A stretch of 64,000 bases of DNA from Blastococcus litoris (GTDB taxonomy: Bacteria; Actinomycetota; Actinomycetes; Mycobacteriales; Geodermatophilaceae), in contig NZ_QCZF01000004.1 of assembly GCF_003075095.1 (NCBI RefSeq), forward strand, positions 62,001-126,000. Direction: 5' to 3'. The translations under genes and the position numbers were made by a program. Each line of letters opens with the position of its first letter. The stretch's first letter is position 1. Below, piece by piece: positions 37,622-42,457 of the stretch. The notes under the pieces were generated by a model. The model was given only the letters and a program-made list of their open reading frames with translations. It made no database searches and was not told the origin of the DNA.

Positions 37622-40249
37622 TCAGGCCGGCGCCAGCTCCCCGGCCGGCTCGTCCCAGTCGCTGTCGACGGCCCGGGGCTGGATGGCCTCGGAGACCTGC
37701 GACGCGGACATGACGGCGCTGACCGCCTCCGCCTCGATCGGCCGGGAGAACAGGTAGCCCTGGGCGATGTCGCACCCGAGCGCCGCGACGGTCTCCGACT
37801 GCTGCGTGGTCTCGATGCCCTCGGCCACGGTGAGCAGGCCGAGGGTGCCGGCCAGCTCCACGATCGCGCGGGTGATGACGTCGTCGTGCGCGTCGCGGCC
37901 GAGGCCGTCGACGAACTCGCGGGCCACCTTGAGCATGTCGATCGGGAAGCGGCGCAGGTAGGCCAGCGACGAGTAGCCGGTGCCGAAGTCGTCGATCGCG
38001 ATCCGGACGCCGAGGCCCTTGAGCAGCCACAGGGTGGCGGCCGCGGCGTCGCGGTCCTGCATGAGGACCGTCTCGGTGATCTCCAGGACGAGGCGGTGCG
38101 GCTCCAGCCCCGAGCTCGCCAGCGCCTCGCGGACCTGCTCGACGATCTGGTCGTCGGCGACCTGCCGAGCCGACAGGTTCACCGTCACCAGGAGGTCGTC
38201 CTGGTCGGGCGACTCGGCCACCCAGCGGGCGGCCTGCGTGCAGGCGTCGTTGAGGACGAGCTCCCCGATCTTGGTGATCAGGCCGCTCTCCTCCGCCAGC
38301 CCGATGAACTGGTCGGGAGTGCGCAGCCCGTCGACGGGGTGCTGCCACCGGACGAGGGCCTCGGCGCCGATGGGGCGGCCGGTGCGCATGTCGATGAGCG
38401 GCTGGTAGACGGTCCGCAGCTCGCCGTTGGCGATGCCCTGGGCCAGCTCGGCCGCGACGTCCTTGCGCGTCGACGTGGTGTTGCCCAGGCCGGGCTCGTA
38501 GACGACGAAGTCGTTGCCCGCGGAGCGCTTGGCCGTGTACATCGCGATGTCGGCGTGCCGGACCAGCGTGTCGGCGTCCGGGACGTCGTCGCCCAGGGCG
38601 ACACCGATGCTGGCGCCGACCGTCGCGACGACGTCGTCGCCGAGCACGACGGGGACGTCGAGCTGGGCGCGGATGCGCTCGATGACGCGGGCGACACCGA
38701 AGCGGTCGATCGGCCCGTTGAGCAGGACGACGAACTCGTCACCACCCAGGCGGGCGGCGGTGTCGGCCGGGCGCAGGCACCCGCGGAGGCGGTCGGCGAC
38801 CGCCCGGAGGAGCACGTCGCCGGCCTCGTGGCCGAACGTGTCGTTGACCGGCTTGAAACCGTCGAGGTCGAGGTAGAGCACGGCGGGGTGGACGCCGCTG
38901 CGGCCGGCGGTGTCGACGGCGTGCCGCACGCGGTCCAGGAACAGGGTGCGGTTGGGCAGCCCGGTCAGCGGGTCGTGCAGCGCCTGGTGACGCAGCTGCT
39001 CCTTGAGGTCGGTGACCTGGCGGAGGTTCTCCTCCAGGCGGCCGCGCTCGAGCGAGGTGGCGACGTGCCGGGCGAAGGTGTCCAGCAGCGCGAGGTCGCG
39101 CGAGGTGAACGTGGTGACGTCACCGATGCGGCCACCGACCAGCAGCAGCCCGTGCACGCGGTCCTCGGTGCGCAGCGCGGCGGCGACGGCATCCTTGAGG
39201 CCGCGCTCGGCGGCGTAGCTGTCGAGCGCCGCGCCGGGGCCGGTGCCCGTGCGGGTGGTGAGGGCGCCGGACGAGGTCGCCAGGCGCAGCAGGCGGTGGT
39301 GGTCCTCCGGGTTCTCCAGCGGAGCCATGACGACGGGGTCGGCACCCTCGCGGCTGCGGCTCACCGTCGCGCCGTCGCGCCCGGCCGGGCCGAGCAGCAC
39401 CAGTTCGGCCATCTCGGCGCGGAAGGCCGAGCGGACGGAGTCCAGGAAGTCGCCGAGCGCCTCCTGGGTGTCGCCGGCGTGCAGCAGCGAGGTGACCTCG
39501 TGCAGCAGGCGCAGGTTCTCCTGCTGCTCGCGGGCGCCGGTGTAGGCGCGGTACGAGGCGATGATCAGGATGGTGGGCAGCGCCAGCAGGGCCAGCGCGG
39601 CGGGGTCGGCAACGGCGGTGCGGGCGACGAGCAGCCCGATCGCGGCGGAGGCGAGGGCGGCCGGCACCGTGAGGGTGCACATCGCCAGGAAGTTGCCCGG
39701 GTCGACGCGGCCCTCGGAGACGCTCATGACCGCGAAGATGCTCGCGTTGCCGACCAGGGTGGCACCGACGATGGCGACCAGCGCCGCCAGCCAGTACCAG
39801 CCCGGGGTGAGCGGCGAGCACAGGAGCGCGTAGACCGTCGTCGCCACCGAGCCGGTGAGGGCGAACAGGGCGGTGTTGAAGGCGAGCTTGAGCCCGCGCT
39901 GACGGCGGTGCAGGGCGAGGGCCGCCGCGACGCCCACCACCTGGGCGACGACGAGGTCGCCCGGGGTGGTCAGCACGAGGCCGGCAGCCATCACCAGGTC
40001 GCTGACGGAGAAGGTGTGCGCGTCCCGCTTGACCTGGACGTGCACGGGGAACGCCTCGCTCACGGCGAAGGCGACCGCCCAGACCACCCACGGCAGGGGC
40101 AGAGCCGTGGACGCTCCGGCGAGCGGGTGGACGACGATGACGAACAACGCCACCGCGACCGCGGCCAGCACGCCCGTGAGCAGCATGATCCGCTGGGGAA
40201 CAGTGAGCCGGTTCGCGCCGGCCTTGGTCTCAGGAACGTCGTTCGTCAT
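37622..40249 (-). CDS. Membrane-bound GGDEF-EAL protein with GAF domain
   Basis: An 875-residue bifunctional c-di-GMP enzyme. The N-terminus has about seven membrane helices (residues 20-235), then a GAF domain (260-400), a coiled linker, a GGDEF domain with intact LGGDEF near 502 and an RxxD inhibitory site (RPAD) five residues before it, and an EAL domain with EALVRW near 630, NLSARQ, EITETVLM, IDDFGTGYSSL, EGIETT and IAQGYLFSRP. The usual KIDRSFV reads KVAREFV, with Ala for Asp. Start ATG 40249 has GGGAGG 8 nt upstream. It follows the subtilase stop by 16 nt and is most likely in its transcript. Confidence 0.93.
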   Translation of the reverse strand: MTNDVPETKAGANRLTVPQRIMLLTGVLAAVAVALFVIVVHPLAGASTALPLPWVVWAVAFAVSEAFPVHVQVKRDAHTFSVSDLVMAAGLVLTTPGDLVVAQVVGVAAALALHRRQRGLKLAFNTALFALTGSVATTVYALLCSPLTPGWYWLAALVAIVGATLVGNASIFAVMSVSEGRVDPGNFLAMCTLTVPAALASAAIGLLVARTAVADPAALALLALPTILIIASYRAYTGAREQQENLRLLHEVTSLLHAGDTQEALGDFLDSVRSAFRAEMAELVLLGPAGRDGATVSRSREGADPVVMAPLENPEDHHRLLRLATSSGALTTRTGTGPGAALDSYAAERGLKDAVAAALRTEDRVHGLLLVGGRIGDVTTFTSRDLALLDTFARHVATSLERGRLEENLRQVTDLKEQLRHQALHDPLTGLPNRTLFLDRVRHAVDTAGRSGVHPAVLYLDLDGFKPVNDTFGHEAGDVLLRAVADRLRGCLRPADTAARLGGDEFVVLLNGPIDRFGVARVIERIRAQLDVPVVLGDDVVATVGASIGVALGDDVPDADTLVRHADIAMYTAKRSAGNDFVVYEPGLGNTTSTRKDVAAELAQGIANGELRTVYQPLIDMRTGRPIGAEALVRWQHPVDGLRTPDQFIGLAEESGLITKIGELVLNDACTQAARWVAESPDQDDLLVTVNLSARQVADDQIVEQVREALASSGLEPHRLVLEITETVLMQDRDAAAATLWLLKGLGVRIAIDDFGTGYSSLAYLRRFPIDMLKVAREFVDGLGRDAHDDVITRAIVELAGTLGLLTVAEGIETTQQSETVAALGCDIAQGYLFSRPIEAEAVSAVMSASQVSEAIQPRAVDSDWDEPAGELAPA

Positions 40250-40265
40250 CGTCGTCACCTCCCTC

Positions 40266-42365
40266 TTAGGACCAGTCCGCGCCGGACCAGCTGACCCCGG
40301 ACCAGCTCACGCCGGACCAGGAGACACCGCTCCAGCTGACACCGGACCAGGACACACCGGACCAGCTGACGCCGGACCAGGACACGCCGCTCCAGCTCAC
40401 GCCGGACCAGCTCACGCCGCTCCAGCTGACGCCGGACCAGGAGACACCGCTCCAGCTGACGCCGGACCAGCTGACGCCGGACCAGCTGACGCCGGACCAG
40501 GACACGCCCGACCAGCTGACGCCAGTGAGCTCGGCCTGCTCGGCGACCTCGGCCTGCTGCGCGGGCGGCAGGTCCTCGATCACCTCGGCCTGCTCCTGGG
40601 CGGGCAGCTCGGAGATGGCCTCGACCGTCTCCGCGGCGGCCTCCTCGGTGATCTCGGTGACGCCCTCGGCGAGCGACTCGGCGGTCGACTCCTCGATGGC
40701 CTGACCGGTCACGTCGACCTCACCGGTGACGGCCTCGCCGTCGACCTCCACGACCACCGACCCACGGGCGGCGTCCAGGGAGCCCGCACCGGTCGAGCGC
40801 GCGTGCGTCTGCACGGCGTTCACCGGCGTGGGGGTGTTCAGCGCCTCGGCCAGGTCGATCAGACCCGCACCCTGGCGAGCGGCCGTGGCGCCGGGGATGG
40901 TGTTGGCCGTCCCCATGAGCAGCGCCTTGACCTCGTCCGGCGTGATCTCCGGACGCTGGCTGATCAGCAGCGCCGCGGCGCCCGAGACGACTGCCGCCGC
41001 CTGGGAGGTGCCGCTACCGCGGAACAGCTTCTCCCCGATGCGAGCACTCGGCGCCGACTGGTCCAGGAAGGAGTTCGGGCTGCGGAGGCTCACGACGCGC
41101 TCGCCGGGGGCGACCACGTCGGGGTTGCGGGTGCCGTCACCGTCGTTCGAGAACGCGGAGACGGTGTCGTCGGCGGTGTCCGCCGTGCCGTTGGTGGCGG
41201 CACTACCGACGGCGATGACGTAGGGGTCGGTGGCCGGGTTGTTGACCTTCCCGGTGCCGAAGCCCTCGTTGCCGACGGCGACGACGACCACGATGCCCTT
41301 GTGCCAGGCCTGCTCGGCGGCGTAGGCGAGCGGGTCGAGCTGGTAGCTCTGGACGCCGTCGGTGCCGAACGACATGTTCACCACGCGCACGTTCAGACCC
41401 TCGTCGTCACCGTGCTCGGTGACCCAGTCGATGGCCGCGATCGCCTGCGAGACGTCGGTGTGCCCCAGGGCGTCAGCGACCTTGATGCTGACGATGCGGG
41501 CGTCCGGCGCCATGCCGACGTAGTTGCCCGAGTCACCGGAGTACGGAGCGCTCGCGGCGTCGTCACGGCCGGCGATGATGCCGGCCATGTGCGTGCCGTG
41601 ACCGTTCGTGTCCAGGTTCTCCAGCGGGGTCCCGACCTCGAAGGACAGGTCAGGGCCGTACACGAGCTTGCCGGAGGCGGTGAAACCGTCGACGGGGACG
41701 GCGCCCGAGTCGATGACGGCCACGTCCACGCCCGCGCCGGTGTAGCCGGCGTCCCACATCGCCGAGGCGCCGGTGACGTCGTTGGCGATCGTGTAGAGCG
41801 AACCGGTCTGGCCGGCCTGGCCCGCGACGACCTCGTTGACGGTCCTGGCCACGGCAGCCGTGGTGCCCGCAACCGTCGTCGTCGTGTTCTCGACGACCGG
41901 CTCGACGACGTCCGTCACCGGCTGGGTGACGGTCGTGGCGGCCTGGGTGACCGCCGAGAACAGGCCGCCCAGGGTGCCGCCGGTCAGGCCGTTGAGGGTC
42001 AGCGACGCGTTCTCGCTGACCGACTCGACGCCCGCGACGCCGCGGAGCGCGTCGATCCGGTCGACGGGGACGTCGGCGGTGAAGCCGCCGATGATCCCGA
42101 GCTCACGCGTGATCGAGCCCCCGTACGCGGCCACCGCCCGCTCGGGAGCGTTCCCCGAACCGGCAGCCTCGCGCACGATGACCGACACCTGGTCGGCCGA
42201 CGACGAGAGCGACGCCGCGGACGCGGTGGCGGGGCCGAAGAGCCCTGCCGCCACGAGCGTGGCAACGGCGACAGTCATCGCCCGCTTCGCCTGCAATGGG
42301 ACGCCGCCCCAGGTCACGCCGTAATCCGGCGCGTCCGGCGGGGAGCCCTGCACAGTGCTGCGCAT
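40266..42365 (-). CDS. Secreted S8 subtilisin-like protease with C-terminal VSWSG repeats
   Basis: A 699-residue protease. The signal peptide has a long n-region with KR and a hydrophobic core ending ATASA (cleavage near residue 52). An I9 inhibitor propeptide follows (DQVSVIVREAAG...VAGVESVSENASL), then a Thr/Val-rich linker. The catalytic triad is Asp in VAVIDSG near 219, His in NGHGTHMAG near 258 and Ser in GSGTSQAAA near 453; Asn of VGNEG near 366. A Glu-rich helix (about 560-612) leads to 16 perfect VSWSG units plus ADWS. ATG 42365 has GGAGG 8 nt upstream; GTG 42374 has none. Confidence 0.95.
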   Translation of the reverse strand: MRSTVQGSPPDAPDYGVTWGGVPLQAKRAMTVAVATLVAAGLFGPATASAASLSSSADQVSVIVREAAGSGNAPERAVAAYGGSITRELGIIGGFTADVPVDRIDALRGVAGVESVSENASLTLNGLTGGTLGGLFSAVTQAATTVTQPVTDVVEPVVENTTTTVAGTTAAVARTVNEVVAGQAGQTGSLYTIANDVTGASAMWDAGYTGAGVDVAVIDSGAVPVDGFTASGKLVYGPDLSFEVGTPLENLDTNGHGTHMAGIIAGRDDAASAPYSGDSGNYVGMAPDARIVSIKVADALGHTDVSQAIAAIDWVTEHGDDEGLNVRVVNMSFGTDGVQSYQLDPLAYAAEQAWHKGIVVVVAVGNEGFGTGKVNNPATDPYVIAVGSAATNGTADTADDTVSAFSNDGDGTRNPDVVAPGERVVSLRSPNSFLDQSAPSARIGEKLFRGSGTSQAAAVVSGAAALLISQRPEITPDEVKALLMGTANTIPGATAARQGAGLIDLAEALNTPTPVNAVQTHARSTGAGSLDAARGSVVVEVDGEAVTGEVDVTGQAIEESTAESLAEGVTEITEEAAAETVEAISELPAQEQAEVIEDLPPAQQAEVAEQAELTGVSWSGVSWSGVSWSGVSWSGVSWSGVSWSGVSWSGVSWSGVSWSGVSWSGVSWSGVSWSGVSWSGVSWSGVSWSGVSWSGADWS
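40269..40520 (-). repeat. Tandem 15-nt repeat coding 16 x VSWSG plus ADWS
   Basis: 252 nt in exact 15-nt periods. The peptide is identical in all 16 units while the DNA varies at silent sites: Val GTC/GTG, both Ser AGC, TCC or TCG, Gly GGC/GGT. The array ends on the stop codon. Confidence 0.97.
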
Positions 42366-42457
42366 TCCGTACACCTCCTTGGTGACATCCGTACTTCCAT
42401 GTGCGTCATCCCTTCGGCACGGAGCGCGGGGTACTGAAACTTTCTAGAACCGCTACA

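Follow-up and report, generated by a model that had tools for sequence, protein, structure and literature searches.

The locus studied here lies on the reverse strand of a 64,000-nucleotide window of Blastococcus litoris DNA (NCBI RefSeq assembly GCF_003075095.1, contig NZ_QCZF01000004.1, positions 62,001 to 126,000), the window being the whole stretch that was analysed. It holds a secreted subtilase that ends in a tandem array of tryptophan (Trp, W) pentapeptides and, directly downstream, a gene for a membrane sensor. The stop codon of the subtilase ends at 40266 and the start codon of its partner is at 40258, 8 bases beyond and on the same strand. An earlier sequence-only reading described the protease and its tail and missed this sensor gene, whose association with such tails, judged by gene order, is phylum-wide. 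The features of the two genes are given below; AlphaFold2 (AF2) confidence is the predicted local distance difference test (pLDDT), and ECF stands for energy-coupling factor.

40266 to 42374, reverse strand: gene of the W-tailed secreted subtilase, 702 amino acids, GTG start (open reading frame, ORF; PF00082, E 1.4e-43)
42216 to 42374, reverse strand: probable signal peptide, residues 1-53 (by eye; consensus of a 28-row alignment)
42009 to 42197, reverse strand: propeptide-like beta-alpha domain, residues 60-122 (AF2, pLDDT mostly 88-95)
40863 to 41738, reverse strand: S8 catalytic domain, residues 213-504 (Pfam; D222, H259, N369 and S457 invariant)
40761 to 40790, reverse strand: conserved GxGSLxxxRG motif, residues 529-538, between catalytic domain and tail (pattern count)
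40524 to 40682, reverse strand: Glu-rich helical spacer, residues 565-617, which differs between relatives (AF2 helices; relatives' tails)
40269 to 40520, reverse strand: Trp-repeat tail, (VSWSG)x16 plus ADWS, residues 619-702 (sequence; disordered in AF2)
37622 to 40258, reverse strand: partner gene, 878 amino acids, MASE9-related membrane domain followed by GAF, GGDEF and EAL (Pfam GAF_3, GGDEF, EAL; synteny)
39482 to 40213, reverse strand: MASE9-related polytopic sensor domain of the partner, with a predicted ECF S-component fold
38513 to 38983, reverse strand: GGDEF domain of the partner, GGDEF letters intact by eye (PF00990, E 3.8e-40)
37739 to 38449, reverse strand: EAL domain of the partner (PF00563, E 2.9e-72)

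The match to Peptidase_S8 (PF00082) over residues 213-504 scored 149.7 bits against a gathering cut-off of 21.8 (E 1.4e-43), and the triad D222/H259/S457 and the oxyanion residue N369 are kept in all 28 aligned rows, the window row included. The earlier description stands in so far as it names a subtilase that is secreted and probably active and whose W repeat is genuine. A tally on 75 subtilase fragments, with gaps set aside, found the Asp in 61/62, the His in 62/67, the Ser in 66/74 and the Asn in 65/72; the misses of L039, L042, L045, L046, L136 and L055 (loci are cited by L numbers, genomes and contigs by G and C numbers) come from cut or shifted fragments whose residues are present in the 28-row alignment, and the others include L191, L193 and L214. 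The gene span first given, 40266-42365, needs a small correction: 42365 is an in-frame ATG at codon 4, and the ORF itself opens at the GTG at 42374. Signal peptide, propeptide and triad had all been called complete. The triad is; the signal peptide was recognized by eye, and the propeptide comes from the AF2 fold, in which a propeptide-like domain covers residues 62-121 (about 60-122), with no Pfam match to it at E 0.001. A Glu-rich helix ahead of the tail, as had been proposed, appears in AF2 as helices at 565-617, and the equivalent spacer is absent or different in relatives. The GxGSLxxxRG pattern was found in 53 of 72 intact W-tailed subtilases and could serve as a processing or docking site. 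Near the N terminus, a conserved GVTWGG (residues 19-24, within 42374-42216) precedes the basic and hydrophobic stretches of the signal peptide; in the consensus of the 28-row alignment, this element ahead of the hydrophobic stretch resembles one tail unit.

The last 84 residues, 619-702, read in translation as sixteen copies of VSWSG followed by ADWS, just as had been reported. Tandem Repeats Finder placed the array at 40280-40523, with periods of 15 and 60. The 16 units are written in 11 distinct DNA words with a single translation, and TCC and AGC are mixed at both Ser positions. Of the 720 single changes possible, 558 would not be silent, yet the units show no amino acid difference. Because the DNA words diverged while the protein sequence was kept, the array is not a fresh product of DNA slippage.

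Two suggestions made for this tail were not supported. When the full-length protein was modelled with AF2 from a shallow alignment of 28 rows, the tail had a pLDDT of about 26-32 and no strands, and a beta-solenoid was disfavoured on that account; the sister peptides described below are moreover spaced at six residues or irregularly. As for a wall- or glycan-binding ribbon, six tails were scanned against Pfam at E 10, and none matched a wall- or carbohydrate-binding family or any family above its cut-off. For the window tail Lamprin scored best in Pfam (E 4.6e-5, 23.7 bits against a cut-off of 34), a match that was taken as low-complexity likeness and set aside. Pentapeptide_4 (PF13599 and relatives) scored 11.8 bits against a cut-off of 38 (E 0.26), below its gathering score.

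The tail is not a recent expansion in one strain, a possibility raised with the earlier reading; subtilases with a Trp every five residues were found phylum-wide. Its mention of SW-rich tails in other actinobacterial subtilases was borne out by searches of 61 genomes, and then of the order and the phylum. The protein search of the 61 genomes found relatives tailed with VSWSG, VTWSG, MSWSG, MTWSG, LSWSG, LSWNG, LTWNG, AKTWS, SSTWA and SARWS, and the wider searches added GQAWS, GTRWT, GKSWT, AARQW and others. Close named relatives are Blastococcus sp. TBT05-19, B. tunisiensis DSM 46838, B. saxobsidens 67B17 and Geodermatophilus sp. YIM 151500, and pairs of tail and sensor occur in 20 family codes (counted from search tables). 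The unit is often nearly uniform inside one protein and different from protein to protein, and the number of units varies. Across the 72 intact W-tailed subtilases, the commonest run letters are G at W-3, a mixture at W-2, and S or T at both W-1 and W+1. Exactly one residue follows the last Trp in 50 of the 72 tails (p 1.7e-19 against one phase in five, ancestry not corrected), and at least three follow it in 14. From this ending and these letters, the commonest unit is G-x-[ST]-W-[ST], closing at the C terminus.

Pattern searches with TGG(N12) were noisy, the reversed-pattern control often matching equally, and were used only for loci with a proven S8 domain. At G012:C42 (L044), W-like frames turned out to be overlapping low-complexity frames; a W-tailed S8 was not found there, and the locus was excluded from the counts. 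Two W-tailed subtilase and sensor cassettes, L226 and L236, lie within about 11 kb of each other (G471:C16, 82-93 kb); GWGWD and GWSWH abound in their tails. A plasmid search returned four S8 peptidases, from Priestia, Pseudalkalibacillus and Bacillus.

The pairing of tail and sensor was evaluated on 42 W-tailed subtilases, which were gathered by S8 homology or the TGG pattern, blind to the neighbour, and whose loci were scanned with profile models of the window genes. The sensor domain lies directly downstream on the same strand in 39 of the 42, at less than 400 nucleotides (nt) in 38 and at 431 nt in L046. The exceptions are L049, at a contig end, L143, with the sensor gene upstream, and L040, without a sensor. 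Left out of this set were the W-tailed S8 proteins of G004, G014 and G022 (L062-L064), where the sensor domain is downstream in 3/3, and second tail-like matches, for example G001:C194, G007:C228 and G036:C6. The controls were 20 further S8 loci whose search matches stopped short of the tail. Three of them, L257, L258 and L259, proved to be W-tailed, and all three have the sensor; the run in L259 has a length of only 4, those of the other two have 7 and 8. In the 17 tail-less loci, whose fetched stretches reach 2.0-4.1 kb downstream, the sensor domain was found in none. Altogether the sensor follows 42 of 45 W-tailed subtilases versus 0 of 17 tail-less ones (Fisher p 1.5e-12, inflated by shared ancestry).

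The output of the partner is mostly GGDEF-EAL and otherwise a histidine kinase, several of them with PAS or GAF domains. Trees and distances were computed on 58 pairs that passed length filters, which dropped the close window relatives L039, L042, L045 and L046. On the S8 tree the GGDEF-EAL or kinase label needs 4 changes (2 of them forced by starred branches; shuffled mean 15.8), and the sensor tree likewise needs 4. These comparisons point to the membrane domain, not the output, as the conserved element of the partner. S8 and sensor distances correlate at r 0.79, a value that 0 of 2000 permutations reach, as co-inheritance predicts. Between tail and S8 domain a weak partial correlation remains (r 0.20, p 0.012).

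Searches were also run from the sensor side. The sensor domain was found at E 1e-8 or better in 78 of 296 phylum genomes, and 80 listed matches not already seen were examined, strongest first and with some weak ones; two had no upstream sequence, leaving 78 loci. A locus with at least 400 nt upstream passed the rule when a frame that stops no more than 300 nt before the sensor contained one W-containing 4-mer three times or more. The rule picked out 38 of the 78 loci, 30 of them S8; when placements were drawn at random within these loci, 9 of 3099 passed. At the tail's place, L229, L244, L247 and L227 have S8-free small proteins with signal-like N termini and the repeats GISWV, GISWT and EVRWN. 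Among the eight S8-free loci that passed, L243 (a 117-residue frame) and L234 are doubtful peptides, and L235 is cut by the contig start. Loci failing the rule, and so outside the 38, include L177 and L185, with mixed S8 W tails; L233, with GLSWL twice upstream of the sensor; L214, whose W-tailed S8 is on the opposite strand, divergent from the sensor gene; and L208 (no Trp), where a small exported-looking (GASLT)n protein (L208:2570-2965) stands directly before a MASE9-related GGDEF-EAL gene. Because protease-free repeat proteins stand before the sensor, the protease is optional, and the pair is repeat and sensor. Outside these counts, L242 (2484-3002) and L248 have secreted-looking ORFs of 46-48 residues upstream of MASE9-related GGDEF-EAL genes; each has only one Trp, close to its C-terminal end (VVWTMGSAR and GSTWR).

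In the window's own family the sensor domain occurs in 55 of 57 genomes, with 93 matches, of which 69 were inspected (L280-L302 and L303-L348). In L280-L302 a W repeat was seen upstream by eye in 20 of 23 (L280 at 431 nt); 12 of these 23 genes had already been examined, and the new ones gave 8/11. Within L303-L348, a family-wide sensor paralogue (E above 1e-45) is preceded by a short W-repeat ORF in 30 of 35 loci, against 38 of 1202 at random; L344, one of the five that fail the rule, has two copies. Examples are MNE(RGAKWA)5, MSSTESV(RGNRWS)4 and MSSTA(RTGKWA)4. The window genome has its own second copy, an MSVSN(RGGKWA)4 ORF before a MASE9-related GGDEF-EAL gene at G000:C3:399435-400124 (L245). 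In the 57 family genomes the RGGKWA pattern matched the window genome only, and other hexapeptides lie upstream of the orthologous sensors. A sequence resembling a Shine-Dalgarno (SD) site precedes 25 of the 30 short peptides, and between peptide stop and sensor start an extended -10-like TG[TC]TAGCCT lies in 27 of the 30 loci. This element, which the 187 kb of strand sequence contain 28 times in all, suggests that the sensor gene has its own promoter.

In cleanly framed arrays of these short peptides, the units vary synonymously and hardly in protein: only L333 and L334 have true units that differ, and the nonsynonymous total of 208 includes pseudo-units from flanks and spacers (L307, L330, L338, L339, L342, L347). 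Differences in letters from species to species are expected of ligand specificity, but also of drift with homogenization. Strong MASE9-related domains without an upstream W repeat lie at L309-L312, L314-L317 and L319; they are possible orphan receptors.

Pfam MASE9 (PF20972) matched 10 of 34 aligned partner domains at E 0.1 or better (best 4e-8). Two partners, both of other classes than the window's, pass its cut-off of 24.3 bits: L130 with 32.2 and L144 with 26.6. In hhalign the window type aligned with five kinase-type domains, L130 and L144 among them, at a probability of 99.5 (E 7.3e-23), and because this ties it to a group with members above the cut-off, the window domain is named MASE9-related. 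The domain was modelled by AF2 with a pLDDT of 93. In Foldseek the best solved matches of the model were ECF S-components, at E 0.18. In VIA the top 19 rows, with Z 10.7-13.3, were all membrane components of ECF transporters; most are vitamin S-components, and some (4m5b, 4m58, 5x3x) belong to metal transport. The row below them fell to 7.4. For a helical membrane model a Z under about 13 may, by the tool's own warning, mean only a common arrangement. The sensor domain is tentatively predicted to adopt the ECF S-component fold. S-components bind small, often aromatic vitamins from outside, and by analogy a Trp-bearing peptide could sit in such a pocket of the sensor.

By combining gene order with these models, we are led to suspect that the Trp repeat is a ligand or docking element of the adjacent membrane sensor, carried in this case by a protease; we give this a rough probability of 0.58. 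A conserved peptide gene adjoining a membrane sensor gene, the arrangement looked for in secreted-peptide signalling, is what was found. The adjacency of repeat and sensor suggests, without proof, a role in signalling or docking. The sequences show the tail, its pairing with the sensor across the phylum, the switch of output, the stand-alone peptides and the retention of the peptide letters under synonymous change; that the repeat is exported, bound and cleaved, and which way cyclic diguanylate (c-di-GMP) then changes, we infer. The window subtilase would leave the cell with the repeat displayed on its C-terminal end. As a tether, or as G-V-S-W-S pentapeptides released from it, the tail would then engage the MASE9-related domain of the GAF-GGDEF-EAL partner, and the protease may free the pentapeptide units or may report its own presence. 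Binding at the S-component-like domain would alter the GGDEF-EAL output and hence c-di-GMP. Elsewhere in the phylum a histidine kinase would be driven by this input pair, or the repeat would be made as a small stand-alone peptide without a protease. Because protease-free precursors exist, the released peptide seems somewhat more likely than the tether.

Several observations weigh against this reading, beginning with the fact that adjacency indicates functional association, not binding. L040 has the tail, and no sensor was found there. Coevolution of motif and sensor beyond common descent was not detected among 30 subtilase pairs (partial r 0.043, p 0.32). The 4-mer rule failed at 40 of the 78 sensor loci, among them the strong relatives L179 and L184 and all eight of the loci that score weakest for the sensor (E above 1e-25). 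Among the stronger-scoring family loci L309-L319 the repeat is present in 2 of 11, both S8, and absent in 9. The repeat of L208 has Leu in place of Trp. No signal peptide was seen by eye on the family-wide short peptides, which leaves their export unexplained. Pfam MASE9 gave no match at E 0.1 on the window domain, and matched in 0 of 57 family genomes. The warning on Z scores belongs here too.

A rival explanation is that the Trp ribbon anchors the protease to the wall or matrix, as a surface or glycan binder, and that the c-di-GMP or kinase neighbour merely belongs to the same attachment programme. Trp-rich repeats are common in carbohydrate binders, c-di-GMP governs attachment in many bacteria, and the N terminus marks the protease as extracellular. 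Peptides of 3-5 units that lack a protease and yet occupy this place before the same type of sensor are not what an anchor would lead one to expect, and it is a single membrane domain that stays as the neighbour while its output switches to histidine kinases. Since the six scanned tails also matched no binding-module family, we consider the anchor unlikely. Another rival is a leader acting in cis, whose Trp codons would hold up ribosomes under a shortage of Trp-tRNA and in this way adjust the expression of the sensor gene (attenuation). In its favour, most repeats stop shortly before the sensor gene and share its strand, and the short ORFs combine strong SD sites with a G+C-rich region past the stop that folds strongly (computed on the native sequence only). 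Against it, the non-Trp residues are kept while synonymous changes accumulate, and the TG[TC]TAGCCT element in 27/30 loci suggests a separate sensor promoter. L214 is divergent, L143 has the sensor gene first, L208 uses Leu, and N termini that look secretory are present on the window subtilase and on several of the small proteins, so that attenuation is improbable here.

The spacing of five leaves room for a structural account, in which VSWSG folds as a quadrilateral solenoid, a Trp-centred version of the pentapeptide-repeat beta-helix. Pentapeptide repeats follow the pattern [STAV][DN][LF][STR]G, which VSWSG fits loosely and to which the GASLT of L208 may also be likened; weak matches to Qnr (E 0.02) and Pentapeptide_4 (E 0.26, under cut-off) point the same way. 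Against these stand the AF2 model without strands (28-row alignment), the Met or Leu that several tails carry at i-2, an inward position, and sister peptides with six-residue or irregular spacing and as few as 2-5 copies, and the beta-helix is accordingly given very little weight. Least credible of all is a neutral low-complexity expansion without function. Tandem arrays do grow and shrink, and the number of units varies here, but the 16 units show zero protein differences beside many synonymous ones, and 20 family codes keep the tail with a fixed neighbour.

The suspected pairing of repeat and sensor can be set beside several known systems. Through intermediates the window domain is homologous to MASE9, yet it falls below the Pfam model itself. 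The protease shares catalytic domain and triad with the subtilisins of Peptidase S8, and differs from them by its C-terminal Trp-repeat tail and its nearly constant sensor neighbour. The S-components RibU, BioY, ThiT and FolT have the fold tentatively predicted for the sensor domain (Z 10.7-13.3, read with the caution above) at 7-14% identity in structural alignments, whereas here the domain is fused to signalling domains. Agr and ComQXPA are quorum-sensing systems in which a secreted peptide acts on a polytopic membrane receptor. The likeness to them is one of gene layout alone, a small peptide gene with lineage-specific letters beside a polytopic sensor that is often a histidine kinase; here the peptides are tandem Trp repeats, perhaps protease-borne, and the receptor often ends in GGDEF-EAL. 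LapD-LapG pairs a c-di-GMP receptor with a periplasmic protease, and likewise links a GGDEF-EAL membrane protein to a protease outside the inner membrane; the present system has another protease family and another sensor domain, GGDEF and EAL letters that are intact by eye, and the Trp tail. In plants, subtilases are reported to initiate signalling between peptide ligands and receptors (PMC13082318). The common theme is a subtilase with peptide-receptor signalling, and the plant system is likened to ours by theme alone. The pairing of a Trp-repeat subtilase with a sensor was not found among the literature matches listed, in which subscription journals are largely absent, and no ligand or partner of MASE9 was found in print among them.

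A broader picture can be put forward tentatively, one of peptide signalling across the actinobacterial phylum in which tandem Trp repeats would be lineage-specific ligands of MASE9-related receptors with an S-component fold, controlling c-di-GMP or a kinase. The repeats would be carried as the tail of a secreted subtilase, which may itself release them, or be made as tiny stand-alone precursors. The genome itself points to the sensor's partner, a short and easily synthesized Trp peptide beside the sensor gene with species-specific letters, and the identity of the ligand, its specificity and the role of the protease become directly testable in soil and stone bacteria. If true, these repeats would be the first ligand class for this type of MASE domain.

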